A stretch of 64,000 bases of DNA, from NCBI RefSeq assembly GCF_000003815.2, contig NC_049983.1:19992338-20056337 (forward strand). Reading direction: 5' to 3'. A model generated the notes under the pieces. It was not told the DNA's origin and ran no database searches. It saw only the letters and a list, made by a program, of their open reading frames with translations. Each line of letters starts with the position of its first letter. Positions within the stretch are counted from its first letter, which is position 1. A program made the translations under genes and the position numbers. The DNA is from Branchiostoma floridae (taxonomy: Eukaryota > Chordata > Leptocardii > Amphioxiformes > Branchiostomatidae). Positions 2,581-64,000 of this stretch are shown here, piece by piece.

Positions 2581-5500
2581 CTACCTAAAGTGTCTATTGC
2601 CCAGCATGGCTGCCATGTATAAGCACTGTGAGGAGTAGGCCCGTGCCCAGGTGGACAGCCACCTGTTCCTCACACAGTCTCTCCTCCCACAGCAGCACCA
2701 GGTTTCACCTATGGCTGTCCTTTCCGGAACACTCCAATAGGAGGCGCTGCTGTACTGTTCACTGAACTCCTGTGTATTCATGTTTTCACCATACTGCGAA
2801 TATTCTGCATAGTATGGGGGCGGGGCATGGTCAGGGTACTGAGAGTAAGTTTTGTCAGGTCTGTAATTGTAGTTCTCTTGGTTGTCAGGATGGAAAGACC
2901 TTTGTTGGTCATCGTAGCTGCTATAGTCCTCATCACTGTATTCTTCATCAGTCTCTGTTTCATCACTCTCATCCTCCTCCCATTCGTCATCAGTTTCTTC
3001 TCCCTCACTCTCCTCCCACTCCCCATTACTAACTTCTTCCCCCTCAAAGTCAATGGTTTCTTCCTCCTGTTGTTCCCATGAGCCATCAGTGCTGGAATCA
3101 CTGCCCTCTCTTTCTGTTCTTTTGAGCCTTTGAACGTCACAATTGTTTACTCCACTGAATTTTGATGAATTTTCTTTAGGTACCTTACTTCCCTTTGGCC
3201 TTGCTCCTTGTTTTGTCCAAGTCGACCAGGTCTTTTCACCAGTTCTCTTATCTATTTCTGTTGCTACTTCAGAGTTTTGATTCTTTGGTTCTAAGTGTTT
3301 TAGATATTCTTCCTCTTGCTGAGCATTTAGGGCCTTAGCACTGGTAACCTCACCATAACTGTTCAAAATCTCTTCTATATGGTCGCTCATGTTGGAGAGT
3401 TCATCCACCAATCGTAGCCTTCCACTTCCAATTCTCTTCTCACGTTTGAGAACAGTTTCATGAACCCCACTACTTGGACCATCCCCAGTATGCATAGTTC
3501 TCTCAGACTCTTTCATTGTTTGTTTTATAATGGATTGTTGAATATTGTGGGCTCCATACTTTTCTTCACCGTGAGTTAGAAAATGTTCCAAGTCCTCTGC
3601 TGCCTGTTGGAATGTTAGCCTTACTTTCTGAGGTCTTTTGAATGATGCTAGAGATGGAATCCTAACTTCTCTCAGAGGCACCTTTCTCTCAATGTTGCTC
3701 TCCAACTTTATTTTAGTTTCCTTTTCTATTTCACTTTCGTTTAAGAAAACCTCATGTACTGAGTTATCAAAACTGGACTCATCCCCATTGAGGGAGTAAC
3801 TGCCTTGACTAAAACTATCGGATAGTGTCAGTGATTGAGTTGATCTTGATGCTATTGAGGTGCTGCACTCACTACTGCTGTTGGATAAGTTTCTTGGTTG
3901 TTGATGAAACTGACCACTTCTTGTCTGCTGTGATTGGTTGTTCAAAGGCTCCTCTGAGTGGTTGTTCAAGAGTTCCTCTGATTTTTTGCTCAAAAGCTCT
4001 TCTGGTTGCTTTGTGAAGGACTGCTCTGATTGGTCATTCATATGCTGCTCTGCTTGTCTCTGAACTCCTTGCTGTGATTGACAGCATGCTTCATCCCTTG
4101 TTGGAGTGTTTACGTCTACAGCTCCATTTGTTTTAGTTGAAGTGGAAAATTCAGGACTGGCCCTACCTGTTATAGATGTATCAGGGTCATTTCCATGATC
4201 TATTACATTGGTAGGTGATTCCACAGCATCTTTTCCTTCACAATCCTTCGTCATGGTGGAAAGAGTTGTCACAGTAACCTGATCACCTGATGACATCACC
4301 TCCCATGTCATATCTTTGCTGGTGATTAGAGTTGAAGGGATTGGATCTGAAACAAAAATTTCCTTAAGTTTTCAGAATGCCCCATACACACTAGAGTATT
4401 AGCAATATACCCGCTTTAATACCAAGAAATTAATTTGTTTACGGTACATAGGAAAGAACAGACTTACTGGGAAGAGTCTGTAGGGACAGACGACAGTGTT
4501 TGGTGATGATCTCCAGCCTGCTCTCCTCTTTCCCACTGTACACCAGTGTCACAGCTGCACCTTGGGTACCTGGAAACAAATAAAGCTCAACTGTACAATA
4601 TAGCACATGATATTTTGTATCTGTATGTAGAAATGGTAACAACAAAAACTATCTGCTAATCTTATTGAAAATTCACATACGCAACACATACAAATCCCTT
4701 TATCTTTAATAATTTTGACTAACATCATTCCATGGGTGGGGATGTCAAAATAAAATTTATGTAAAAAAAGCCCTCCATGCATGAACTTTAAAATGCCCTT
4801 AAATCAAAATTTAGCTTTGCCCAACATAAATAAAGAGTAAGGAGTTGGAAGGAAGGTACAGCTTTTCACAACCTCGCTTTCAAAGTCAACAGTGGTTTGT
4901 CCCTTACCAAACCTGCCAGCCCTGCCTATCCTGTGCATGTACGTCTCCCAGTCCTGTGGTACATCCAAGTTCACCACCAAGTTCACCTTCTCCGCATCAA
5001 TACCTCGGGCAGTCTGAGGAAAAATAACCATAGAACATCAGAACTATTTCTCCATTTTACTGCAGTCATATTTGACATACACGTGCGCTCCACAAAAGAC
5101 TTGAGTATTCTATTAGAAAAGACTGCAAGCTTCTGGTGAGGAAATTTGAGGGCAATTCTAAAAGCAGTCTCTCATTGGTTCTACCCATAAGTGACAGTAT
5201 TGGCCAATCAGGACACTGCATATGATAATGTCGCCTGCCTATTGGATATTGTTTCCCAAACCAAATATGGTAAAAAAATAGCAAAAAGTTCCGTCAAAAT
5301 CCCAAACTAAATCATTTTGAAGTGGTCTATGTCAGAAATGTGAACGGGGTCCTTATATGCCAATACCTGTGGTATGGAGTGAAATATACATGTAATGAAT
5401 GGTATGGACAGGAATTAGAAACTATAATCTAAGAAATGATTAAAGTCTTACCAGATCTGTAGATACCAAGACTCTGCACTGGAAGTTCCTGAGTTGGGAC

Positions 5501-8500: not shown

Positions 8501-9439
8501 TGCAATATACCCACCACTACTCAAGCACAACTTCACAAGTTACCTGAGTACTGAAGGTTTCTAAGACCAGACTCTCCAGAGCAATGACTGCAAACACACA
8601 GGTCTTCCCTGTCCCAGACTTGGCCTGGACAATCAGATCTAGAAAAAGAATAACAACTATATACAGTCAAACCTGTATTAGGGGCCACCTCTGCAGAGGG
8701 GCCACCTGTCCATAGTGGCCACTTTTTGTCGGTCCCTTGGGTATTTTATCTACAAGTTGCCACCTCTATACAGAGGCCACCTGTCTATAGTGGCCAAATT
8801 TGTCCGGCCCCTTGAGTGGCCGCTATAGACAGGTTTGACTGTATGTCTACAGTCCAGGCTAGACAAATACTGGGAGTGTCGAAAGTATGTCACGTGAAGA
8901 ACGAAGATCAGGACACAACAGGCTGGAGCCTTCTCTCCTGGATGCAGTATCAAGGTATCAACATGGTTTAATATGTACTACTACCAGTAACGTTAGATGA
9001 TCATCACTTCAGTTGAAACTGTGTAAGGTGCAGCGCAGCAGTTTACTGAGACTGCTAGATCATGTTCGGAGGCTTATACATTTTCAAAAACACAGAGGAA
9101 ACAAAGTCTACAGATACGGTCTTAAAATTTTCGTTCAATTTGTATACAAATGTATTTCATTCTACTCCGCTCATGGTGGTGGTGATTTACATGTGTATGA
9201 GGTCTCTAGTCTAAATATATTTACACGTTTTTGACAATACCTAAACCACATCTTCCTAGCGGAATGGCCTTGAGTTGAATAGGAGACGGCCGTTCGAAGC
9301 CAGCCAGGGTAAGTCCACGCTGTACCGGCTCGGACAGAAGCAGTGAGGCGAAGTCTGCTCCCTCTGTGTTCAAAACGTCTTCAGTCCGGCAGCCCTCCCT
9401 CAACTTGTGCGCCGGCTTCCAGACAGTTGGCGAGCTCAT
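2581..9439 (-). CDS. DDX20: DEAD-box RNA helicase DDX20 (Gemin3), 11 exons
   Basis: Gemin3 is the DEAD-box helicase of the SMN complex, which loads Sm proteins on snRNAs. Exons in transcript order: 9241-9439, 8544-8638, 7917-8085, 7457-7571, 6896-7038, 6054-6192, 5634-5692, 5452-5534, 4908-5013, 4468-4569, 2581-4346; all phases agree and give 991 residues (human is about 824). Visible motifs: Q motif GFERPSPIQ, Walker A AKSGTGKT (72-79), APTREIA, SPGRI, DEAD (177-180), [24 protein letters not shown] (361-370). The DEADKLLE context and the [16 protein letters not shown] stretch are typical of DDX20 rather than other DEAD proteins. The last exon encodes a long low-complexity tail with SEE/NNQ-rich repeats, a region like the vertebrate LSSFK..LTF motif (IPSLASFK, then [15 protein letters not shown]), a strongly acidic block, and a Tyr-rich, Cys-containing end. 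The start at 9439 gives a short N-terminus before the Q motif. Confidence 0.95.
6271..6570 (+). mobile_element. tRNA-derived SINE in a DDX20 intron
   Basis: The head resembles a tRNA: box A TAGTCCAGTGG at 6282 and box B GGTTCGATTCC about 45 bases later match pol III internal promoter consensus. A non-tRNA body of about 200 bases follows, so this is a SINE and not a functional tRNA gene. It is inserted opposite to DDX20 transcription, between exons 5 and 6. The body may belong to the deuterostome SINE groups known from lancelets and sea urchins, but I cannot confirm the family. Ends are approximate. Confidence 0.8.
8662..8843. mobile_element. Palindromic MITE, family copy 1
   Basis: Terminal inverted repeats TACAGTCAAACCTGT and ACAGGTTTGACTGTA bound a 182-base element in DDX20 intron 1. 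The interior repeats GGCCACCTGTC.ATAGTGGCCA in two places, so much of the element can fold on itself. TA at both ends suggests a TA target duplication, as in Tc1/mariner-type MITEs. No ORF. Two relatives lie in the twinfilin gene. Confidence 0.8.
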
Positions 9440-9901
9440 TCCGGAAAAGTTATCAACAGCACAACTTCACAATATGATTCCCTGTTGCATTTCTTATAAT
9501 ATACTTCAAATACCAATGAATGTACCCTAGATATCACACAGAAAATAGAGAGAAATCACATTTCGACGTTTTACCAACGCATGGTGGTCGCCATTTTGAA
9601 TTCCCGCCATGCGTACTTTTGTCACTTCCTATCTGATTGGTCAAAATGAAACATATGGATAGCCTCTATCCAATCAACAGGCATTTGACAAAATGTGATA
9701 ACCTTTGACCTCTAGCCAATCCTATACCTCTCACATGACCAAGTGGAAGTGTCACACAGACATTCGTGTACAAAATCAACTCTCGCCGGGCTAAATATAT
9801 CCTAAAAGACCGGCCTCTGGCAACGGATCTAGCTCCCAACAGGCCAGCTTCTTGACGTAGTTGAACACGCGCAGATAGCAAGAAGAGAAAGCAGAGGGAA
9901 A
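9440..9901. promoter_or_regulatory. Divergent promoter between DDX20 (-) and twinfilin (+)
   Basis: The two start codons lie 462 bases apart and point away from each other. The space holds CCAAT boxes in both orientations (GATTGGTC near 9635, TATCCAAT near 9669, AGCCAAT near 9714) and a CGCCATTTT motif near 9589 that resembles a YY1 site. I see no clear TATA box. This looks like a TATA-less housekeeping bidirectional promoter; transcription starts are not visible from sequence. Confidence 0.65.
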
Positions 9902-15900: not shown

Positions 15901-17865
15901 ACAGTCATGATTTTTGGAAAACATTTTAATTTTTAATTTTTTCTTTTTTTTTGTATTGCCAGGGTGTGAGCACCCACATCCATGTGGAGACCCGGCAGCA
16001 GACCGTTCAGGGTGTGGCCTTCCCCATCGCACAGGCTGCCATGGCCAAACTGCAGCAGCTGAAGTTAGGACAGATCGACTATGTCAGATTGGTATGCTGG
16101 GCATTATTGGGGGCAACAATAGTGATGAGAATAGAAAATCTTAGTACAAATGAATTGTATGAAGGGAAGGATATGATGGCCAAGATTTGTCAGAAAGTTG
16201 CTGGAGTATAGAGTGGTGAAGTAAAAGGAAACAGATATTGATGATTTTGTTTAGAACAGATACAATCTGAAAGAACCCTCCCCATTTTTTCATTGATGGA
16301 ATGAAGAAGTCCAAAAATTAATGCGCTTATAGAATGCACACAAAGATTGTAATTATTCTGGAAGTGGTACAAGTTTGGATATTATTTTAGTGACTGTTAT
16401 TCCACAGTTTATTCCCCAGAAGACAAATACCTTTGTTGGGTTTCCTCAACCATTGGTGGCACTAGCATATACAACATTGCTTGAAATACTCTGCACTTTT
16501 ATCAACATACTAGTAACACCAGTACCTGTTGTTCTTGTTCCCCAGGAACTAGACATGGACAGGGAGACCATAGAGTTGTCGGGTGCTGAGGACACCACAG
16601 TCCAGTCTCTGCCACAGAGGGTTCCTGAGGACCACCCCAGATACCACTTCTTCGTCTTCAAACACACACATGAGGGAGACTACCAAGAGTCTGTTGGTAA
16701 TTACTGTACTGAATTTATTCAGTAAATGCATTGAAGATTAAAGCGAGGGCAAGGATTTTGTTTTGTGGTGGGAGGGAAAAGACGTTTTTATGATGTTTAA
16801 AATTTGCAGTTCTGTACTGTAATATAGAAGTCATACATACAAGGAAGACATATTTACAGTGTCATGAGTGGTGGAGAGATCTCTGCCAAAGTACAACCAC
16901 TGTGAATGCTCCAAGATTTACACTTAGCTAATATAGTTTGATCCTAACTTAGACTCCTAAGTGAGAGTGTTGTCTTTCCCTTTAAATTTTATGAAGTATC
17001 TAGGGTGACATTCCTTCAAGAAGATGTTGTTACATTTCCTGTTAAGATCAAAGAAAGACCTTTTCCAGTGATGTAAGACCGTAGCACTAATGTTTGTCCT
17101 TGTTTTATAGTTTTTATCTACTCAATGCCGGGGTACAAGTGCAGCATCAAGGAGCGCATGTTGTACAGCAGCTGTAAGGCACCACTGTTGGACCAGACAG
17201 AACACAGCATCGGCATTACTGTCTCCAAAAAGGTCAGTAAAACATTATGTAATAAGCTATTTCATGGATTGAACTGGCCATGCACAGGTTAGAGGTGAAA
17301 GCCCATTACTTGTAAACAGTTCTTGCTAGACTATGCTTAATATGTGTCCCAACATTTTTGTTTTGTTCAAGTCAGTGCAGCCAGTGACTTGTACAACCAC
17401 CATAAGCCTACTTGATTGCTTGCTATCTTGTATTTGTTCCTTTCAGAAAATATGTATGAGAAAGCAGTGAATGCCAGTTTGAAACTAATGTGTGTGAGTG
17501 TGTACATACATAAATCAGATAAAATTCACCCAGAAACTGTCCAAGATCCTGATCTTTCTATAAGATACACGTCTTGAGATAGAGCTTAATGATGTACTAC
17601 TAGTAGTATTATGTACATTCAGATGATGTCTAAGACTTCTTTGCAGGGACGTTTGCCTTCAGTATTACTTACTTCACCATGTGATTTTGTTCTCTGTCCG
17701 TAGGTTGAAATCGATGATGGTGCTGAGTTGACAGAAGAATTCCTGATGGACGAACTCCACCCAAAGAAGAATGCGTACCGGGAAAAGTTTGCGCGGCCGC
17801 AGGGTCCCGCGGGAAAGAGAGGACCAAGGCGGATGATCAGGGGTGCAAACACGCCTTCCAGTTAA
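9902..17865 (+). CDS. TWF1: Twinfilin (two ADF-homology domains), 11 exons
   Basis: Twinfilin binds actin monomers, caps barbed ends and binds capping protein through its tail. Exons: 9902-9926, 11159-11251, 12633-12683, 12946-13076, 13831-13926, 14286-14390, 15220-15306, 15963-16091, 16546-16696, 17111-17232, 17704-17865, giving 383 residues (human about 350). Recognition: N-terminus [30 protein letters not shown] and [16 protein letters not shown] in ADF-H 1; [30 protein letters not shown] in ADF-H 2; basic tail [14 protein letters not shown]. Exon 15220-15306 adds 29 residues with a proline-rich stretch ([12 protein letters not shown]) in the linker; it is phase 0 on both sides and could be skipped to give 354 residues. 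Exons 3 and 4 are separated by an AT-AC intron. The symbol is for the family; vertebrates have TWF1 and TWF2, and this single gene probably corresponds to both. Confidence 0.95.
11314..11462. mobile_element. Palindromic MITE, degraded family copy 2
   Basis: Starts TACAGTCAAACCTGTATTAG and continues with TGGCCAC blocks and TTGGTCCCTTGG like the copy at 8662. The right terminus is no longer recognisable, so the end is approximate. It lies in twinfilin intron 2. Confidence 0.65.
12684..12945 (+). other. U12-type AT-AC intron of twinfilin
   Basis: The 5' end is ATATCCTTT, the consensus of the minor-spliceosome donor, and a branch site TCCTTAAC stands at 12930-12937. The intron ends CCCAC. Splicing here joins codon 'G' + 'AT' to give Asp and the peptide [14 protein letters not shown], which lines up with the ADF-H core of vertebrate twinfilin. 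No GT-AG choice at these positions keeps that alignment. Length is 262 bases. Confidence 0.9.
15423..15549. mobile_element. Palindromic MITE, short family copy 3
   Basis: Bounded by TACAGTCAAAACTACAT and GATTTGACTGTA, 127 bases, with inner GTGGTCACTCCTG and AAGTGGCCAAATTGGACAGG segments typical of the copies at 8662 and 11314. Flanking TA at both ends. Located in the twinfilin intron after the 29-residue linker exon. Confidence 0.7.
15564..15583. repeat. (TA)n microsatellite
   Basis: About ten TA units, followed by an imperfect CA/TG stretch, in a twinfilin intron directly after MITE copy 3. Confidence 0.9.
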
Positions 17866-48100: not shown

Positions 48101-51100
48101 ATGGCTATTACCTCTACCATAGGTTTCACGATATTGGCAGTTTGCCACATTTCAATACTTCTTCAGGTTCAAGTGAACGGAGACGTCCGATCAACTATCA
48201 CTGCCCTGAATAGAAGGATTGCGGATCTACAGGTGTTACGCAATGAGGACTCCATACCTGGACAGGCTAAGCAGAAGGGACTATACCCTAGCATGGTACG
48301 TTTTGTGAATGTTTCACTCTTGGCATCATCCTTTAACTTCAAAAGAGGATAGATCCGATAGAGCTATTGGGTCCTGCATTAGTGGAAACTGAAGTAAAGT
48401 AGAACAAGTTGCCTGACAAATCCATGCGAAGACTATACGTACGGTATAAATAAAGCTAAAGCATGCCGACGGTATATATATGCTAATGTTAAAGATGATG
48501 TACATCAGACAGACGCAGAAGATTAGCTGTTCCTTTATTTTTGGTTACTTAAATCATTCAATTCTGTCCGATTGTAACTTACGTCACCTAGCTGAACGCC
48601 ATGAAACTAGAGCGGGAGGAACCGCCACCAATGCAATATTCCAATAAATACTAGTACCTCATTGAAAACTTTTCTATCCGTATCTTACAAGTCATGTCAA
48701 AACAAGTCTTATCTAAGAAGAGCTGAAGAAAAGGCACAATTTTCTTAACCGTTAAGTTCTTTCGCGCGACTGTATTTGCACGGGTGTTGGTTTGTTTGCG
48801 GACAGGATAAGTCACGAGGGTGTTTAGCTTGGATGTTTGGAGGTAGGTTTTTCGCTTCAAGAAGAAGCTAGATAAAAAATTCGCTAGATATAAGATCTTG
48901 ATAAAAATCCGCATTGAAGATTTTGTGATAAGGACCTTTCAAGGGGACAAGATATGTGAAGTTCTTACTTTAACTTACCGACTAGAAATGTCAGCGTGAC
49001 CTGCCCTTTTGCCTGACCCCAGGAGAAGCATGCTAGGTCAGGCTGACCGGTGGGTCACTTCTCTTAGTTTGTCGCTTTACAAGATATGGTTTATAAGTTG
49101 TCAGGAATAATTGAAAAGTCAAAATTGTAATATCTATATTGTGTAAGGTAACAACAACTGAAGAGAAACTTAGTACATACATACAAACTGTAACTTTGAT
49201 AATTTTCAACAAACAGTTGCAGCTGCCGTACAATGCTGTTTGCATGTTTTTTTTTTCAGGCTGAAAACTTTTGATTCTTTATGTTTGTATCTGCACTTAT
49301 CTTTATTCCGGTTTTCTTTGCAATTTTAGGAATTTATTTTTCGCCCTGTCGCTCCATATTTTTTGCAAATAAAATCAAGAAACAAAAAATTGAATTGAGG
49401 TGGTGTTTTTATCCATATACATCAGATACGGCTAAACGTCCATGGCCCGCCAGGCACGTCCCTCGCCCGAGATGTCGGTCTTTACGACAACAACGCGTTC
49501 GCCACGCTGTGGATCGTCACGTGTCTGCTGGAGAGTCACACCTACGGCACGGCACCTGCACCGGACCCCAACCGGCTGCAGCTGGCTGTGGACGCCATCA
49601 ACACCTTCCACTCCAAAAACCTGCCCGTAGGTTCAGTCGCTGTAAATGTTTCGCTGACATGTATGCTCTAGTCTTGGGATTCATAAAGAATAGCCAGATA
49701 GTTACGGCATTTTTAAAAGTCATTAACAAACGGGACGTAAGCCCGTTCAAAGATTATTAAACTGCGAGATACTAGTACATCATGTGTAATATTTCAAAGT
49801 TCAAGTCCCCTGAGACATAAATCCGTCTGGTTTCGATAGGAGGTCTTAAGGTCCTTCACATTGACATGTTACCCGCAATGCATCTCGCCGCTCAGGCGCA
49901 GTTAATCCCGTGAACCGGCTTATTGTGCAGTCTTCCGTCATTCTCAAGGAAAATGTCCCACAAATTTGAACATTTGATGACCTAAAAGGCATAAAGGTCT
50001 TTATTCAACGGCGTTGCTCTCATTGTGTTGAACTTGTTGACAACAAAGTCATCATTGTCCTTCCATGCACCTGACAGGGCGAGTCGGCCATGGACTTCTG
50101 GCCGCAGGTGTACAACAAGACGTCAGGTGTGTGGGTGCAGTCACCTGAGAACCTGCTGCAGGCACTGGAGCTGGGGGAAAACGATTTTCCATGGAACACC
50201 ATTAAAAAGATCCTGTTGGACTTCGGTCTGGACAAGCTTTGGAATGACGTGGCATCGATGCATAATTTGATGTACGTTATTTGTATTCTTTACTTTCTCA
50301 ACTGATGATATCTAAGCAGATGTTGGGTGGCAGCATCATGATGGTTTGGTTGCTCCACGTTTCTGATGCAAACTATGAAATCTCGCTGACCACACAGATG
50401 CCAAGTTTCGTAAATGACAATTATTCCTAGCCTCCTTCACAGCTTCTTTCAAAGAACGGCAACATTTAATTTGTAGGAGCGCTGGTCGCGACTTCTCAAT
50501 ATCGGAACCAGCTTCTTATGTCGGGAATATCGTATTCAGTGCCGCCCTATAGAAGCAGCAAATATGACATTCCCAGCTCGCCTGGCATCGGTATACAAAA
50601 TCGAATCAGCTCTCCCCCTCCATAAAGATAAACACGGCAAGTTCCATCCCCTTAAGCATGGCTACAAACCTGCATTCAGATTGACATATCTCCTTTCCTT
50701 CTAGTAAGATGACAGAGCATGCATACCGCATTCCGCCAGACTTCGACGACTCTTCCCTGAATCTGGGTCTTGGTGCCCAGTTGCTCCAACTCAAGGACAG
50801 TTTCCCTCTAGCCTACCAGTCCTGGGCGTCCAACAACACGGACCTACAGTCCCTCCAAAACCACCTGAAGTCCTACGCGTACCGTCCGCTGTCGAAAGAC
50901 AACAATGCCAACACGATCGACCCGAGAACGTACTACTACATGCGGCCGTTCTTAGAAAAGGCGGCAAAAACAGGAGACCAGGTCGCCTTGGTAACCACAT
51001 GGGTGAGTCAGAAGCAGTCATCGTGGTTATTCGTGACTGATATTTCTTCACAAAAATTACTTTTGGTTCTGCCATGCTCTCCTTTTTTTGGTATCAAACA

Positions 51101-54100
51101 AATGATAGGCAGCAGATTAGAACTAATGGAAATTAATTTTACATCAAGAGGAAATTGTCTATATTGCGTAGATCGAACTATCAAACGGATAAGGACTAGC
51201 CTGATTAAATCTTACTTACAGCAGCCCGTCCAACATCCGGCGGCCTCCTAGAAGTTACAGCCCCGGACAGCTGAGTTTGCGTTACACAGACTAGATAAGG
51301 CCAAGGACGGGTATTGAACGAAATAATCACGGTTATTGCTGTTGGCGGTTCTGGACTAGTATTTCCTTTGCGTCTGGATGCAATAGTACTGTTGCAGTGC
51401 CATTGACAAGTCTCCAATGACTGTCCTTATACTGTTTTCTAGCTACAAAACCTTGCCGAGTTGCGAGTGATGGTCGACAAGGGCGTGCTCATGCCGTACA
51501 ACCTGAACAACGTGGACGTGACCGTGGCCGCCAACACCCTGGCCGGCATCACGGAGGCCCTGCTGGCCGGACTGGTACACCCCGATAAATGGTTTGACCA
51601 GGACGTGCAGGTACAAATCCCCTCAGTACACAGTAATGATCGTGACATACTACTTCCAAGAAGAAGGTGCTCTTTACAGCCCTAACGGTGTTTGTAATCC
51701 CAGTTTTAAAGATCCCTGTCTTCACTGTTCGCCTCAATTTAATATTGTCTTCTCTCTTTTCATATAAGACTATGAAGTCAAAACATAATCAGGGAATGCA
51801 ATTCAGAAATGCTTCCGCCCCTGAGCATTCGCCAAAGAAAAACTTTACAGATTCATCACAATTCAGCAATACAGGATTAGAAATGACGGCCGAAAACGTC
51901 TCATGTAACGTTGAAGAGGACAATAACCCACAGTCGTACTTGATATCCTGCCTCACAATTGTCATCGTCCGTGTAGGAAAGTCAGATTAAAAACTAACTC
52001 GCCGTTTCCACCCAGAGAATCTACCTGAACACCACCGCCATGATTGCTTGGGCCGTGACGTCAGAGGCCATCTTTACCCGTCCTGACCTGGTGATGACGT
52101 ACTACCCATCTCTCTACAACTTCCTGTGGTACTCCTCCCGGACCCTCTTCCTCCTGCAGTCCAACCAAGACAAGCTACAAGACTACCCTGATTGTGTCAC
52201 TGATGTACAGCGGCTTCTTACTACGACTTTCAGGTAATTTGGACTTATTATCTCCGTGAAACTGGAGGTATTGTTTTTGGTCTATTTGTCTTTTTATCTT
52301 GGTTTGTGTCCGGCCTTGTCCCCACTGGCCCGGATCCAAGTTTGTATCCGGGATGTGGAGTAACCGGAGACACGTAGCACATATTTTGAGCTGGCCTGCG
52401 TCCAAATTTCTTCGGCAGGCCGACAGGAGGTGACCACTGGCACGTGGCCAAAACTCAAACGAGTGCACCATGTAACGTTTGAAATGGACATGGTTATGGT
52501 ATTTGTTTAGTTTAGAAAAAAAATTTCTTCAGTATGAGATCGTAGATTATTTGTTAGACATACAATGTTTATATTGCTGGTACATTGGTTCGAGTTCTAG
52601 GCTTATATATCTAATCCATGTCTTTAGATAAGTAACCAGTCAGATCTGTATGGCGAGTTATTTTGTGTTGCCACAGAGATCATGTTACACCTAAGCTGTT
52701 GGACCGTGCCCAGACAGACCGCAGAGACGAGGCGTTTTTTGACGACTTCCTGGGAGATGGGGACAAGGACGCCTTTGGACGGCCAAAGGTCTTGCACTAT
52801 GAGACGTTGTCAATACAATAAAATCCACATAGACATTTTCAAGACCAAATCTTTAATGTCAATGTTGTGTCTGTGGCGTACTTGTACTTTGAAAATCTTG
52901 ACGTTTGTAGTATTTTATACTAGATTCATTGATTTGTGGAAAGCATTTGGCGACGGCTTTACTTTAGCATCAAACGACTGCTCACTTGCTGTAGTTTTAT
53001 GGGTTTATACCGAATTTTAAGTTTCATTTTAAGTTCTATGTGCTTACATTCGAAAGCGTACAAGAAGCCTTGCTGTTTTCTTTTAGATCCACGGGGAAGA
53101 CCGGATCTTCAGCACAGCACAGGCGGTAAACACACTTCTGGCAACCTGGACAACGTTTAATAGGACCTCAAAGAAATTGGTGTGGATAGACGGCAAGTAT
53201 ATCTTGCTAGAACGAATCGGTAGACTGTGATGATTTGATATCACGGAGGGAATCTTATATGCGGAAATGGAACTTAAGTAATCTTCATAAGCCAGACAAT
53301 TAGATTTATTTCCACGCATTTCTTGTTTTAGAAACCCATTCAGACGTCAAGACTCTGGTGTCTCAAGCCGTGTCTTGGTTAGAGAAGAACACTCTGAGCG
53401 GCAGGTACAAGACGTACAACGCCTTCTTCTCTGGTTCTACCAAGGGATTATCCGTGAGTGTGCACTCGTGCTTTGTTCAATACCCAGTGTTCAAGATTCT
53501 CAAGGCTTCTTGGCGGCCATACGATTCCTGAAACCCAAAGTCTTAATAATTTCTTGTTATCCGATATCCCACCGCTGCCACCAGTTGAGACATACGCTCT
53601 TTTCTTGCTTGGTCAAGACTAGAATCTGTCTGAATCGTAATAAGATACAGATGTGAGGTGATTTTGTCACAGGGCCACCGATTGACAGTATAAGTGATAT
53701 TCCCATTATTTCAGCTGAAACATATTCCAACACCCAAATGTGCTACCAACACTTGCAAGGCGAATCAATGATTTAGAGATCTTCTTTTTGACTGTGGAAT
53801 CAGAACATGACCCGGCAATGTGTTTGTTTCCCTTCGTTACAGTCCGTGCCTTTCCTGTACCCGGCTAACTTCATACAGTACCTGAACGGTTCGGCTGTTC
53901 CACCCACTGCCAACGTCTCTGTTGACGTCATAGCGGGAGTCACCGGTGTTATCGGTACGCGTGCTCTCTAAATATCATCAATGGGGATAATGTTCATATA
54001 ACCCCTTTCAAAATGTCGTATTTTCAAAGCTTTGTTCCAATTTTTTTCTTGGAGATCGCCCATCAAGTCTTTTGTTCGACATACTCGAGCTGGGATAAAC

Positions 54101-54465
54101 TTTCATAGTTTCCTTAAAGTCACGTGGTTGATGACGTATTTTGTGTTCTCTATAGATTACTGTGTCTTTTAGAAAACCTTATATATATTGTATTTATTAC
54201 ATGGCCTGCATTTAGCACATGTAATTCTGTTTTCCGTATGAAATGTTAAATTTCAAAAGGGAGTTAAAATTCAAGTTTGTTCTTTCTCTTCCCAGATCCT
54301 GCTGAATACCAGAAGATGATTGACCAGCCCCATTTCGGATACGCCACGCCTACTAAGTTTGAAGGGTTTAACGGCCCGGAAACATTCTTTCCTTTCTGGT
54401 CCTCGGAACCGTACACCTACGCCACCGTCATGTTGGCTCTTGCGCAGTACGACAATATAGCATGA
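48101..54465 (+). CDS. Secreted glycoprotein of unknown family, tandem copy A, 11 exons
   Basis: I do not recognise the family. Exons: 48101-48295, 49426-49626, 50078-50271, 50705-51002, 51443-51610, 52016-52233, 52677-52788, 53087-53192, 53332-53453, 53843-53954, 54296-54465; phases agree and match copy B exon for exon; 631 residues. Residues 1-27 form a hydrophobic signal peptide (ILAVCHISILLQVQVNG), after which DVRSTITALNRRIADLQ begins. N-glycosylation sequons include NKTS, NNTD, NTTA and NRTS. The mature chain appears to have only two cysteines (VTCLLES and YPDCV). An acidic stretch FDDFLGDGDKD is at 446-456. Trp/Tyr-rich helical blocks recur (MDFWPQVYNKTSGVW; YYPSLYNFLWYSSR). The end is YDNIA. 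No transmembrane segment is apparent after the signal. Exon 8 ends at a GC donor (53193). The introns (the first is 1.1 kb) hold no recognised element. Function cannot be inferred. Confidence 0.85.
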
Positions 54466-54520
54466 TCAGTGTATCGTAGTCAACATAAAACATACCAATG
54501 AAACTACATGTACAAGGATG

Positions 54521-54526
54521 AATAAA
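54521..54526 (+). terminator. Candidate polyadenylation signal of gene A
   Basis: AATAAA 56 bases after the gene A stop codon, ahead of the microsatellite; the only close candidate. Confidence 0.55.
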
Positions 54527-54667
54527 TCATGCTAATGAGAATTTCATTGTGTCTTCTAAAGAATGATAGCTCATGATAGTTAGTCACCACCTACCGTACT
54601 GCACGTACTAAAGTATTCAAAATTTAATTATGAAGCTCTTGATCTCATCGTGTCCGCACAAGCATTT

Positions 54668-54739
54668 GAGATAGATAGATAGATAGATGATGTTAGATAG
54701 ATAGATAGATAGATAGATACTGTAGATAGATAGATAAAT

Positions 54740-54772
<33 letters not shown>
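54668..54772. repeat. Compound microsatellite (GATA)n then (GA)n
   Basis: GATA units run from 54668 to about 54735 with two interruptions, then GA units from about 54740 to 54772. It lies between tandem copies A and B. Confidence 0.95.
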
Positions 54773-54776
<4 letters not shown>

Positions 54777-55106
54777 CACCATCCTCGATGATGCAATCTT
54801 GCTATAATGCTACTTCAACTGTTAGTCTAAACCAGGCGCACTTTGTGCTCGATATACGTGCAGTGTTACTTACAACGCAACGTGACGTCATAACTTATCA
54901 GCCAATTAGGTGCTACTACCTATACCTATACCTAATTACATATCCATGACGTCATATCTGTTGCGGAAAGTTCGTCACGTGCTATGACTTACACTGGACG
55001 TCCGATCGAAGTCCAAGGGCATTTGTATGATTTATGAAGTCATAGGAGGTCATAGGCGGCACATGCATACAAGATTTGAGTCATTCTCGGAACACAACAC
55101 CAGAAT

Positions 55107-58100
55107 ATGGACAACAGGTCTTCGGTAGTTTTGAACCTGTCAGCAGTTTGCATGACTCTGTTGCTTCTTCATGGTCAAGTGAACGGAGACATCCGATCCA
55201 CGATCGCTGCCTTGAATAGAAGGATTGCGGATCTACAGGTGTTGCACAATGAGGACTTCGTACCTGGCCGGTCATGGGCACGGCAGTTGGGACTATACGC
55301 CAGCGAGGTAATTAATGGCTGTTAGAATCACCGATACTAGTACTTTAGGTTATCCAGGTAAACAATGGCGGCACAACGGTGCGTTGTATACAAATACAAT
55401 GGCCTGGTTATATGCAATAGGTCACATGTCGTTCGAGAGCACATCGAGAGCATTCCTGGAACGGTCGTGGCGAAATCGTACAAATTCAGCTGTCTTGTGT
55501 CGGTGTCTGGTGTTGTACATCGTTGTCGAGAGTCGGTTCAGCCATAGCCTTGCTGAAAATTTTAGGACAGTAAAGATCAGGTATGCAGGTATGCATACGA
55601 CAAATGTTAGTGTGATTTGCGCACGTTGCTTTTTGACTGGTGACAGCATAAAACTAACAAACCCTTAATGTGTCTAAAAAATCGCCAGTATTGCAATCTA
55701 TTATACGGAGTCAACAGTCCAAACATTTTCAATGTTACCTGTAAATTCTACCTGTAAGGCGGGGAGCTTACTTCCGGGTTCACGGCACTGACACCTGACA
55801 CCACCTGTAGAACATGACAACACCGGCGTTTCTGCCTGGTCGATAACGTTATAGGGTACAGGTAGGCTTTTAGACGGGTACTATTTTTCTTTTTACGCTA
55901 AAGGAAAAAAAAACACCATTCGCAGCTGAATCTACATCTTCAATATGATTAATTTGCTAGAAAGAATGAACGGAAGATTTTTGTTCTGTATGTTTCTGTC
56001 CTTCCCAAACCAAACTACACGAAACATTGTTAAGCATAATCTCTTACTACATGTTCCACCATTAAGTGCTTTTCAGCGCACCAATGGTACTTACTCCTCT
56101 GGCTCACATCATCACCCTGCCCACGCACCAGTCACAAAGGCCTTCTGCAGCAACAAGTTCTTTCCACAGACTGGACAATTATGGAACCCGAGTCTACCTG
56201 GCACTGAGTGTTTTCATCGCAAGCACTAGTGCAACCCACCAGCCTTCAAAATCAACCAACGTCACCGCTATCTACTAGGATAGTCACCTATATCTCCATA
56301 TGTGGTCTTCTGATAGACAAAAACCGTGTACATGAGAAAAGAACCCTGTTTTTTCTCGTTACCTCTAAACAGGTTCGGCTGAACTTCCACGGCCCACCAG
56401 AGATGTCCCTCCTGCGAGACGTCGGTCTGTACGACAACAACGCGTTCGCCACGCTGTGGATCGTCACGTGTCTGCTGGAGAGTCACACCTACGGCACGGC
56501 ACCTGCACCGGACCCCAACCGGCTGCAGCTGGCTGTGGACGCCATCAACACCTTCCACTCCAAAAACCTGCCCGTAGGTTCATGTTATCATGAATTATTG
56601 GCATTATCTATATGTCACCAATGCTATAGGATATAGCGGCATACTATTAGTTAATGTAACATGCATTGGCATAATACCGGCCGTAAGACTTATACCGGCC
56701 GATCAAAAATAATGGAATTTAAAGAGATCTACACATGCAACAATAGTTATTTCTGAGGTGTGCACACTTCAGACATCTAGGTGTCCAATACATCATTTAC
56801 AAAGCATCGATAACAATGTATTCGAAGACAACAAGGCCAAACGTTTTCAGTATCTTTTTCGGGGTAGGCAGCTCGTCGTGGGACGAACACACTGTCACAT
56901 TCATTGCCAGATTTGTAGATCATAATTACACATGCTCATGGCACAAGACGAACATGATTCAACAACAATCTTGAATTTCTGTTGGTGACCTACAACTCAT
57001 GTAAAAGTGTGAAGAACCGTTGCATAATAGCCCGATCTACGACTGAATGGGCAAAATTGAACGTACTCAGCCATTTTCCCGCCATTTTTATCATACGCTA
57101 GCAGTGATGTGTTACGTCATAGCGGTTGTGCCGGACAGAAGTTAAATGAAAATTCTTGACAGTATACGTCCGTTTTCTCATGACATTTTGTATGCTCATG
57201 TAGGTTTATGTTTTATGCATTTACTCACAGAAAAGGAAGGAACATCAGAGGATGTGTAAAGGTACATAGCAGCAGTTAATTTAATTGTGCCGTGTTTCTT
57301 CCGGCCGGTATTTTTACCCCCTCCCAACCACGCGCCCGTTCGCCGTGTAATTCCGCGGCGTGTTACAATTACAATATTACGCTTTTAGCAGGACAATAGT
57401 GGCAGAAAAGTTACACAGAAGAAGTGGCAAGGGTAACCTATAACAGCAACATGTAACTGGAGAAAATGATGCGTTGACAATTTGTCAAATCAGTATGGCT
57501 AGAGAAATCGTCGTAAACGTCCGGTATTATGATAATAGATGTTACATACCATTTTGTCCGGATCGCCAGCCTTTCGCACACAGAATGACCCAGTAATTTG
57601 TCACGTGACTTCATCCGTATGTCAAGGGTACCTGGAAGTTAGTACCCCCTGATCCCTCCATTGATCGGTAGTGGGCCTTGATTCTTAAGCTAAACACCGC
57701 TTTAGGGCGCGGTCACATAGGTAGTGCGATCGTCGTACGCCATAGGAGTTTCAAGCAGACCCTACCACCGACATGGATCCAAAACAACATTTTTGTACCA
57801 AGACAGTTAAACTTTGCAGGATACCTAGTTTTTTTGTCCTGCAAAATGCCCGAAGTTATCGATCGCCAACGATCGCACGACCTACGTGACCACGCCCTTA
57901 CGTACTCCTGTATTTTCCCTTTGCAGGGTGAAGCGGCGATGGACTTCTGGCCGCAGGTGTATAACAAGACGTCAGGTGTGTGGGTGCAGTCACCTGAAAA
58001 CCTGCTGCAGGTGATACAGCTGAGTGAAAACGACTTTCCATGGAACACCATAAAGACCATCCTTTTGGACCTCGGTCTGCATGACTTGTGGAATGACGTG

Positions 58101-61100
58101 GTGACAATGCAAGAGTTGATGTAAGTTGTTTTAGAAACTTTCTCTTTGTCAAGGAAACATATACATGGAACAGGTTAGGCTAGCGTCACATTTCCGGTCG
58201 GACTGCTTGCGGAAACGAAAAATATAAATGGATACGTAAAAATATACAGAAATAATGCCCACGACTATTCTCTTTACGCCTTGTGTAGTTTGGTGTATTT
58301 TCTATCACACTTTTCGTTCCCGGAAGGGTTCGGAAATTTGATGTAGGCCTAACTAGATTTGATTATGAATACTAGTTCACAATGGGAAAAAGCTTTGTGA
58401 ATCCAAAGGCTTTGTGCTTTGCCATGCTTTCTTGAGCTTCTTTTCTACATGCCAACCTCTTGATCTTTGTGAAATTAAAGTTTTCGTACATGGTAATCAA
58501 TACTCATTTCGTTTTCTTCCAGGAAGGATGTGTCAAACGCGTACAGAATTCCCCCCGACTTCGATGACTCTTCCCTGAATCTGGGTCTTGGTACCCAGTT
58601 GCTCCAACTCAAGGACAGTTTCCCTCTAGCCTATCAGTCCTGGGCGTCCAACAACACGGACCTACAGTCCCTCCAAAACCACCTGAAGTCATACGCCTAC
58701 CGTCCACTGTCGAAAGACAACAATGCTAACACAATCGACCCGAGAACGTACTACTACATGCGGCCGTTCTTAGAAAAGGCGGCAAAGACAGGAGACCAGA
58801 TCGCCTTGGTAACCACATGGGTGAGTCAGGCTTTCTAGTATAATCATTACTTTCATCAATTTTAAGGTACGTTTGTTTGTAAGGATGTTTGCTTGTTTTC
58901 TGACATTAAATTGTGTCTCTATGAAAGGATGACCCAAGAAGTTATGAATGATGTCTATAAGTTTGTAGCAGTTGTTGTGCTGTGTGAGTTTGACCGTAGA
59001 TTTTCTTTAATAAAGATAGACAACATAGCCTGTTCTAGTATCGTGTAGCCTTTATTTTTGTCCACCAGATTCAAAATCTCGCAGAAGCTCGCGAGATGGC
59101 CATGGCTGACAAGGGCGTCATCATGCCCTTCTTCCTGAACAACGTGGACGTGACCGTGGCCGCCAACACTCTGGCCGGCATCACGGAAGCTCTGCTGGCC
59201 GGCATGGTGAAACCTACGTGGTTTGACCAGGACCTACAGGTATAAAAGTCTCTCTTGACTGCCTATACTACAACTAATTATGACACAATAGTTGTTAAGA
59301 ACTCCCATTTACGACCAATGTATTTCTGTCGTTTGTTTATCATTTAAGGTAGACCGGATCTTGATTCTGAGGTCTGTTTTCCTAACACTCCCTCCAGGTC
59401 TTTGTCCTTTCAAAAACTGGCTATAGGTACAACAAAGATTCTGGTCGGTCTGTGAAAATACTTGATGTTCTCTCTGGCGAAGGAAGCGCGTACGGTGACA
59501 ATTGTCATCGTCTGCTGAGGAACGGTAGTGGCAGAGACTAACTTGTTGCAATTGTTATTTGCACAGAGAATCTATCTGAACACCACCGCCATGATTGCTT
59601 GGGCCGTGACGTCAGAGACCATCTTTACCCGTCCTGACCTGGTGATGACGTACTACCCATCTCTCTACAACTTCCTGTGGTACTCCTCCCGGACCCTCTT
59701 CCTCCTGCAGTCCAACCAAGACAAGCTACAAGACTACCCTGATTGTGTCAAAGATGTACAACAGCTTCTTACTACGACATTCAGGTAACTGAGATTTTTC
59801 ATGACATACAATACCCAGCTTTATGCCAATACTTTTAGCATGCGCCATGTGACACGTTTACAGACATGCTTTGTCTTACCTTACCACAGGTACCACGTCA
59901 CACATAGACTAATGAGTAGTGCCCAGACAGACAAGGAAAAGGAAAGTTTCTTCGACGATTTCTTAGGAGACGGGGACAAGGACATCCTTGGAAAGCCAAA
60001 GGTTAGGCGAAGTCTCTGTCACACATGTCGCACGAGAGGTTTACGGAGGCAAATAGAGATAAATTCAGCTGTCTTGAACGGAAATATTTGGTTCTGTCAT
60101 AGGTTCGCTGAAAATTGCACAACAAATGTTGTACGACGTAAGTGACCATGCCAATATTCCATAGAACAGAGAACATGGAACTAGTTAAGACCACAACGTA
60201 AACTTTTAGTTTTCAGTTGTTTTACAATTTTAGATCCACGGGGAAGACCGAATCTTCAGCACAGGACAGGCGGTGAACACTCTACTGGCAACCTGGACAA
60301 CATTCAATAGGACATCGAAAAAACTTGTGTGGATAAGGGGTGACTATTTATCTACGCCTTGCCCTCTAGATAAAAAATAAAGGGAAGTCAGACAAATGTT
60401 CAAAAGTAATTATACTAGTTTCAAAACGTAGCTGTGTACGTAGTTCCGCACGCCTACAACAAGAAGAGTCTTTTGATAACTGTAATGACTATGATGTCTT
60501 GCGACCCCATAGAAACCCACGCAGACGTCAAGACTCTCGTGTCTCAAGCCGTGTCTTGGTTAGAGAAGAACACGCTGAGCGGCAGGTACAAGACGTACAA
60601 CGCCTTCTTCTCTGGGTCTACCAAGGGATTATCCGTGAGTATGCACTCATTCCATTACATATTGGTTGTTGTGTTTATGTTTGTGCAATTTAGTCGGAAA
60701 TAGATATATTTACAGATTTATTGATGGGTGGTATGCTTTCTGCTGAACAAAAATATCTGAACAACATTTTTCATTTTTGCACGGTAATTGCTATGTCACT
60801 AGTACTAGATAAATATTCAATTCAGCTGCTTCAGTGTTGATCAAATGTTGTTAACCATTAATATTGAGGAATGATACGTTTGTTCTTGTCCCAGTCACTG
60901 CCTTTCCTGTATCCGGCCAACTTTCTACAGTATGTGAACGGTACGGCACTGCCGCCTACAACTAACCTCACTCGTGACGCTCTGTTCATCGCAGGAGTCA
61001 CGGGCGTCATCGGTACGTGTTCATCAAATCAGACAAGAGCAAAAGAACGGCAAATAAGAAAGGCCTTCTCCAATGAAGCGCCACCAAAATACACATTCAA

Positions 61101-61590
61101 CAGTATACAGTATTTTAAGCTTCAATGACAGCATTTTAATCTCCGTTATGTCGCTGGAAAAGTTGGTGCATTTAGTAGAAAGGAAAGATCGTGGCAGTCA
61201 GAAGACGTTAAGATCTTCCATCCCAACATCTGCTTGGAGAACAAAACCATCTCAATTGTGATCAGAGTAAAACAGTCTCCCTGTCCATAGACCACGTGAC
61301 ATATGTCACAAATCACCTGCATGCATTCTAGTTGCAGCTGTTGCCCATTTTCAGACAGTCAGTTACGTCTCTCTATTTCGTTTCAAGGCTAATCACCCAA
61401 GTTCATTCCTTTGCTTACAGATCCTGCTGAATACCAGAAGATGGTTGACCAGCCCCATTTTGGATACGCCACGCCTACTAAGTTTGAAGGGTTTAACGGC
61501 CCGGAAACTCTGTTCCCTTTCTGGTCCTCGGAACCGTACACCTACGCCACCGCCATGTTGGCCTTAGCGCAGTACGACAATATAGCATGA
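55107..61590 (+). CDS. Secreted glycoprotein of unknown family, tandem copy B, 11 exons
   Basis: Paralogue of copy A with the same exon-intron plan. Exons: 55107-55307, 56373-56573, 57927-58120, 58523-58820, 59069-59239, 59567-59784, 59890-60001, 60234-60339, 60513-60634, 60895-61012, 61421-61590; 636 residues. Signal peptide VLNLSAVCMTLLLLHGQVNG, then DIRSTIAALNRRIADLQVLH. It shares the two mature cysteines, most sequons (NKTS, NNTD, NTTA, NRTS; NGTA and NLTR near the end) and FDDFLGDGDKD (449-459) with copy A. The protein differs mainly in exons 1, 5 (first half), 7 and 10; exons 4, 6, 9 and 11 are nearly identical. Exon 8 ends at a GT donor (GTGACT, 60340), unlike the GC donor of copy A. 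Introns do not resemble those of copy A. No domain was recognised. The pair looks like a recent local duplication in a family that may have more members outside the window. Confidence 0.86.
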
Positions 61591-63477: not shown

Positions 63478-64000
63478 CTTAAGACCAAAACTGTATATTT
63501 GGGCCCCCTGTACCCTGGTATTATAACCGAATGAGCTGAAATTTGGCACAGATGTGCCTTGATAAGTCCCCCATATAGATTCAATATCAGTTTTGGTGTA
63601 CAGTACAACAAAATGCTTATTTTTGCGATTTTTTCACCAATTTTTGACCAAAAAAGGACACTTTTGGCCCCTGTACCCTGGTATTACAACCAAATGAGCT
63701 GAAATTTGACAGAGATGTGCCTTGATAATGCCCCCATATAAATTTAAGAACACTTTTGGTGTACAGTACAACAAAATGCTTATTTTTGCGATTTTTTGAC
63801 CAATTTTTTTACCAAAAAAGGACACTTTTGGCTCCTGTACCTTGGTATTGCAACCGAATGAGCTGAAATTTGACACAGATGTGCCTTGATAATCCCTTCA
63901 TATAAATTCAATAACACTTTTGGTGTACAGTGCAACAAAATGCTTATTTTTGCGATTTTTGGCCAATTTTTGACCAAAAAAGGACACTTTTGGCTCCTGT
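63478..64000. repeat. Satellite-like tandem repeat, period about 162-164 bp
   Basis: GGACACTTTTGGC recurs at 63656, 63820 and 63982 (spacing 164 and 162). Each unit has CCTGTACC.TGGTATT, GAATGAGCTGAAATTTG, GATGTGCCTTGATAA, TTTTGGTGTACAGT and TGCTTATTTTTGCGATTTTT. At least three units are visible and the array leaves the window. Confidence 0.9.

Follow-up and report, generated by a model that had tools for sequence, protein, structure and literature searches.

A tandem pair of putatively secreted amphioxus proteins with probable kinship to class II terpene cyclases

Introduction

Class II cyclisation in animals is used for sterols. The described enzymes that come closest to the proteins treated here are the squalene-hopene and oxidosqualene cyclases (SQHop_cyclase, TIGR01507), the HAD-fused drimenol synthase of marine bacteria with its TC-beta domain (9m7d and 9mhs), the merosterolic acid synthase MstE, and linalool dehydratase-isomerase (Ldi, PF18566), an exported enzyme with an alpha/alpha barrel and a terpene substrate. 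This report concerns two neighbouring genes, A and B, in a stretch of 64,000 nucleotides from the amphioxus Branchiostoma floridae (assembly GCF_000003815.2, contig NC_049983.1, positions 19,992,338 to 20,056,337 of the forward strand), hereafter called the window. Bacterial relatives of their products indicate that both very probably belong with the class II terpene-cyclase beta-domain superfamily.

Drimenol synthase carries a DxDTT motif at residues 331 to 335 in which D333 is essential (PMC9128629, in excerpt). D331, D333 and Y427 are catalytic, Y427 bonds to D333, and the variants D331A, D331N, D333N and Y427F are completely inactive (PMC12365925, in excerpt); the same excerpt describes MstE as a monodomain class II cyclase. 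Linalool dehydratase-isomerase resides in the periplasm; it has a signal sequence and folds as an (alpha,alpha)6 barrel (PMC6600392, in excerpt), and is by analogy a precedent for an exported toroid that acts on a terpene.

Compared with these systems, the relatives of A and B share profile homology with the squalene-hopene and oxidosqualene cyclases over the catalytic half and match them in the order of the DXDD motif and the helix after it, whereas A and B themselves start with a signal-like segment and leave the squalene and oxidosqualene cyclase models unmatched (A and B in Pfam, A in NCBIfam). With drimenol synthase the shared order extends to three elements, DxDTT/DXDD, (V/I)D-A-x-V-x-x-N-V-L and YYP; the differences are the signal-like start and the lack of any HAD match in A or B.

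Results

The two genes have complete spliced open reading frames, and the phases after exons 1 to 10 are 0,0,2,0,0,2,0,1,0,1 in both. The preliminary description of this DNA, which gave two complete 11-exon genes of about 631 and 636 residues with shared phases, was therefore correct in coordinates and sizes. All 20 introns end in AG, and 19 start with GT, the other (intron 8 of A) with GC. The products align by BLASTP with 535 of 633 positions identical (85%) and 7 gap positions, as expected from the strong full-length similarity noted earlier. The most hydrophobic 19-residue stretch of each protein is N-terminal, starting at residue 3 in A and residue 7 in B, and the best later stretch has a mean hydropathy of 1.43 and 1.33, respectively. 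Together with six N-glycosylation sequons in A and eight in B (two of these within the putative signal peptide), this upholds the look of secreted glycoproteins described before. Each protein has three cysteines, of which one lies in the signal region. A search for internal repeats in B gave a best self-match of 35, inside the range of 12 shuffles (33 to 47).

Relatives were reached through a helix motif, N-x-V-D-x-x-V-N-A-N-V-L, which some bacterial toroid proteins carry and which served as a lead only; it is close to NNVDVTVAANTL in B. A degenerate DNA scan for this motif, run on bacteria and archaea with one genome per species for 84,980 species, yielded 75 loci, of which one (L025) is a chance frame of 42 residues and 74, with frames of at least 150 residues, were used. 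This toroid-like family (L001 to L075 without L025) is spread over many bacterial phyla and includes three archaeal records (L038, L039 and L050).

A profile of the 74 relatives scores A at 48.8 bits and B at 44.1 bits, against at most 2.3 bits for 100 shuffles and two reversed sequences. Because the loci had been chosen by a motif, the comparison was repeated with that motif masked, which left 38.3 bits for A and 33.1 for B; masking the DXDD and YYP motifs as well left 27.4 and 22.5 bits, and the best of 1000 shuffles reached 4.3 bits. When 4735 six-frame segments from the window and its flanks were scored, the top five were four exons of A and B and a lone exon described below. In profile-profile comparison, A and B match the relatives of 380 to 520 residues with a probability of 96% (E 2e-9) and seven long relatives with a probability of 64% (E 6.5e-5), while all 10 column-shuffled controls remained at or below 0.7%.

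The best-matching relatives are bacterial proteins of about 380 to 670 residues, most with a hydrophobic, export-like N terminus, and their homology to A and B begins soon after the signal-like segment. Among the complete relatives of at least 380 residues, 30 of 34 have a hydrophobic stretch near the N terminus and 6 of 34 a lipobox-like cysteine; counted within the first 30 starts, the stretch is found in 25 of these 34, against 9 of 23 complete relatives shorter than 380 residues. Inspection by eye of seven loci revealed no conserved neighbour genes. In a tree of 65 rows, A and B group with the long and mid-length relatives (support 86/88) on a branch of 3.34 changes per site, which is too long to carry any argument on horizontal transfer or its direction.

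The relatives connect A and B to terpene cyclases. An alignment of B with 51 of the 69 listed relatives (52 rows) matches, among PDB sequences, squalene-hopene cyclase (E 1e-16), ent-copalyl diphosphate synthase (3e-11), drimenol synthase (1.5e-9), lanosterol synthase and MstE (1.6e-5), and every match with E below 1e-4 is a terpene cyclase by name or belongs to such an enzyme. A narrower alignment of B with 21 long and mid-length relatives (22 rows) has squalene-hopene cyclase as its best match (E 1.5e-4) and matches MstE weakly (E 0.38). In Pfam, up to E 1, SQHop_cyclase_C is found in 19 members of the 52-row alignment (best 4e-9) and SQHop_cyclase_N in 8. A search for hopene cyclases in the genomes of 10 relatives gave six loci in five genomes, and the three above the family cut-off, each with a D-x-D-D-x-A frame, were the only ones used for alignment. 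Relatives of 300 to 379 residues align with these three squalene-hopene cyclases over 260 columns (E 5e-15), with PDlDDT on PDVDDS/T and VNANVL on the following helix. A further alignment (A3) places VDavVnANvL...YYP...R on drimenol synthase. The profile homology to the class II beta domain is thus reached through the relatives, not by A or B alone, and the label of an unrecognised family given in the preliminary description does not hold as a final state.

The residues expected at a class II active site are conserved. Both proteins contain the DXDD motif, and in the 52-row alignment D211 and D213 (B numbering) are aspartate in every row, Y384 is tyrosine in 48 and Y385 in 51; in the 22-row alignment D211, D213, Y384, Y385 and P386 are unchanged throughout. 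D211, D213 and Y385 lie outside the search pattern. The stretch N322 to L333 lies inside it, so its invariance proves little. The match of the 52-row alignment to 9mhs starts at profile position 166 and chain position 316, which sets DXDD on DxDTT if the interval is ungapped. The numbering R425-Y426-Y427 fits the RYYP segment aligned with the YYP of the family (excerpts of PMC9128629 and PMC12365925), and Y385 is the candidate equivalent of the supporting tyrosine Y427, a mapping inferred from the A3 match (E 0.49). By inference, D211, D213 and Y385 of B (D209, D211 and Y382 of A) would correspond to D331, D333 and Y427 of drimenol synthase. The earlier suggestion that a conserved acidic motif hints at an enzyme appears to have been right.

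The divergence between A and B is uneven. Introns are unalignable, with a single 15-base match over the 10 intron pairs, and exons do align, so the match between exons is not simply that of a recent copy of the whole locus. Synonymous divergence (dS) is 0.365 overall and nonsynonymous divergence (dN) 0.094, and the resulting dN/dS of 0.26 is a blurred figure, since silent change differs greatly between exons: dS is 0.07 to 0.26 in exons 2, 4, 6, 9 and 11 and 0.41 to 1.79 in exons 1, 3, 5, 7, 8 and 10. Four-fold degenerate sites differ at 53 of 262 positions, and none of 10,000 permutations reproduced an equal unevenness by exon. Identical stretches of 153 and 132 bases span most of exons 2 and 6. 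The simplest reading that fits this patchiness is gene conversion, which would be confined to exons because the introns have diverged. As dN is lower than dS in all 11 exons, protein constraint is still the better reading, in line with the purifying selection that the preliminary description held likely.

The genome (513,431,437 bases in 431 contigs, with the window on contig C5) was searched with B, a search in which distant paralogues may be missed. Of its 23 matches, 22 are the exons of A and B, 11 from each gene, and the remaining one is an isolated last exon roughly 20 kb downstream from gene B (C5:20074367-20074519 in this search, C5:20074370-20074519 as L077:8033-8182). This match covers most of the last exon, and its protein is 90% identical to B. 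No further exons were found within 80 kb downstream or 40 kb upstream of the window. The lone exon reads as a relic of a third copy, because the match starts inside the exon and no other exon is near. SQHop_cyclase_C has a single match in the whole genome, on contig C10 and away from the A/B locus, which is probably the sterol-making lanosterol synthase.

Other searches were negative within their scope. PHROGs contained no family matching B; plasmid searches with B and with the relative L009, and searches of viral contigs, gave nothing useful, nor did a phage search with B, which returned one match (E 0.4). The A/B alignment run against prokaryote genomes gave 78 pattern matches and no relatives. 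Two cytochrome c prime matches in the PDB sequence search (E 2.3) were rejected as chance. Among the matches listed, neither the literature on amphioxus (novel secreted families, terpene cyclases, horizontal transfer) nor that on class II cyclases in animals contained a recognisable account of the family.

Coordinates are collected in Table 1. Elsewhere in the window, the segment 6825-7100 on the reverse strand matches the sequence of a DDX20 helicase structure (E 2.3e-13), and the frames at 2581-4371 and 9221-9466, which have no Pfam match, may share a DDX20-like gene with it. A piece of an ADF/cofilin domain, perhaps of twinfilin, lies at 16333-16725 (E 7.9e-5). RRM, OCRE and zinc-finger pieces between 36093 and 42985 may form one RBM5/RBM10-like gene. 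A tandem repeat of 163 to 164 bases, in three copies, occupies 63505-64000 and reaches the end of the window. The tRNA and Rfam searches of the window found nothing. The pieces neighbouring A and B look like animal genes.

Table 1. Positions in the window of genes A and B and of the features assigned to them
Feature	Position	Strand	Details
Gene A	48101-54465	+	11 exons, 631 residues; spliced reading, exons refound one by one in genome search
Gene A, exons 1-6	48101-48295, 49426-49626, 50078-50271, 50705-51002, 51443-51610, 52016-52233	+	
Gene A, exons 7-11	52677-52788, 53087-53192, 53332-53453, 53843-53954, 54296-54465	+	
Gene B	55107-61590	+	11 exons, 636 residues; spliced reading, exons refound one by one in genome search
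Gene B, exons 1-6	55107-55307, 56373-56573, 57927-58120, 58523-58820, 59069-59239, 59567-59784	+	
Gene B, exons 7-11	59890-60001, 60234-60339, 60513-60634, 60895-61012, 61421-61590	+	
Putative signal peptide of A	48101-48181	+	about residues 1-27, ...QVQVNG; inspection and hydropathy
Putative signal peptide of B	55107-55187	+	about residues 1-27, ...HGQVNG; inspection and hydropathy
DXDD motif of A	50739-50750	+	D209-F-D211-D212; aligned with DxDDT of bacterial relatives
DXDD motif of B	58557-58568	+	D211-F-D213-D214; relatives' motif aligned to squalene-hopene cyclase PDVDD
N-N-V-D-x-x-V-x-A-N-x-L helix motif of A	51506-51541	+	N318-L329
N-N-V-D-x-x-V-x-A-N-x-L helix motif of B	59138-59173	+	N322-L333; aligned with drimenol synthase 9m7d 366-375
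YYP motif of A	52100-52108	+	Y381-Y382-P383
YYP motif of B	59651-59659	+	Y384-Y385-P386; aligned with RYYP of drimenol synthase
GC-AG intron 8 of A	53193-53331	+	GT-AG in B at the same place
Probable conversion tract, exon 2 and 9 intron bases	49483-49635	+	153 bases identical to 56430-56582 in B
Probable conversion tract, exon 6	52068-52199	+	132 bases identical to 59619-59750 in B

Discussion

The observed gene structure, the profile-level homology, the conservation of D211, D213 and Y385 and the order of the motifs lead us to favour, by a modest degree, the reading that both proteins are secreted and glycosylated and belong to the class II (DXDD-type) terpene-cyclase beta-domain superfamily, with a proton-initiated mechanism. 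Judged from profiles alone, they would be alpha/alpha-toroids, kin of the catalytic half of squalene-hopene cyclase and of the cyclase domain of drimenol synthase. In the proposed mechanism, an isoprenoid or other alkene would bind in a predicted cavity, and D213 (B numbering), with help from D211 and from the YYP tyrosine Y385, would protonate a double bond, a step that could set off cyclisation, isomerisation or hydration, either along the secretory pathway or extracellularly. Continued catalysis by A and B, on an isoprenoid and within the secretory pathway, is a plausible hypothesis with about even chances.

Several observations weigh against this reading. Direct searches name no family: Pfam returned none up to E 10 for A or B and NCBIfam none for A, and the PDB sequences gave no usable match with A or with the A/B profile, which agrees with the earlier statement that no domain could be named. 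A profile built from A and B only, run against eight bacterial genomes that hold family genes, missed those genes and gave two matches (E 0.0024 and 0.089) in frames that do not fit the family gene. The identity of B to the relatives is 15 to 22%, and subset profiles score unevenly (41.9 bits for A and 33.0 for B with relatives of 380 to 520 residues, 11.5 and 13.8 with the long ones); the profile of the 300 to 379 residue relatives gives 9.4 and 11.2 bits, near its best shuffle of 8.1. Most of the PDB matches of the 52-row alignment are carried by the C-terminal repeats, and the DXDD stretch itself scores 3.1 bits on squalene-hopene cyclase in that alignment and -1.8 in the 22-row alignment. 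D214 is aspartate in 42 of 52 rows, and the strict form DxDD[T/S/L] occurs in 42 of 57 complete relatives. The A3 match to drimenol synthase has the E value of 0.49 given above. Toroids serve other functions as well, and the complement TED domain is found by Pfam in 10 of the 52 members. Finally, we are not aware that a secreted DXDD cyclase has been described, a point in favour of novelty but also of caution.

The most serious competitor, though an unlikely one, is a secreted toroid enzyme of other chemistry, in which the acids would hydrate, dehydrate or isomerise a small alkene or alcohol with no ring formed, as in linalool dehydratase-isomerase. The periplasmic location, signal sequence and barrel of that enzyme agree with it, as does the hydrophobic N-terminal stretch common in the longer relatives, and one relative (L035) weakly matches the corresponding Pfam family (E 0.077). 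PF18566, however, is matched by neither A nor B, and their three cysteines, including one in the signal region, fall short of the four that are essential in linalool dehydratase-isomerase, whose active site sits between two subunits (PMC6600392, in excerpt).

Somewhat less probable again is a toroid without enzymatic activity that would bind another protein or a hydrophobic ligand, for example as a carrier or in immune recognition, with the acids serving a structural role. Binding is the role of toroid domains in complement (TED) and in cobalamin carriers, and the Pfam families for these two match 10 and 2 of the 52 members (best E 1.7e-6 and 0.021). Recognition gene families commonly show local duplication, relic exons and exon-wise conversion, all of which the A/B locus appears to display. 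The near-complete conservation of D211, D213 and Y385 over the 52 rows nevertheless exceeds what would seem necessary for a scaffold.

A secreted polysaccharide lyase or glycoside hydrolase on an alpha/alpha toroid is improbable: the signal-like start, the sequons and the richness in tryptophan and tyrosine would suit it, and Pec_lyase matches 5 of the 52 members (best E 0.0044) and Glyco_hydro_88 one (E 0.091), but these matches are weaker and rarer than those of SQHop_cyclase_C, and the PDB matches below E 1e-4 are all terpene cyclases. Very improbable is that the likeness to toroids from bacteria arose artificially, from picking the relatives with a motif that was adopted as a lead instead of being derived and whose invariance among them is partly built in, given the scores that persist with the motif masked and the rank of the A/B exons and the relic among all segments of the window and flanks.

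Kinship with the class II beta-domain superfamily, reached in this way, shows that a family left unnamed by direct search can be approached through its bacterial relatives. Taken to its full extent, the preferred reading leads to a tentative and rather doubtful proposal: a chordate may possess, beside the cyclase for its sterols, a secreted class II terpene cyclase that depends on DXDD and makes or alters cyclic terpenoids, either within the secretory pathway or extracellularly, with widespread, poorly named exported bacterial toroid enzymes carrying the same catalytic residues as its nearest relatives. If this is true, A and B would point to a function for an exported bacterial family that is widespread and thinly covered by Pfam and NCBIfam, and terpenoid chemistry in chordate secretions or defence would become open to direct test through a second DXDD protein, exported and with intact catalytic residues.

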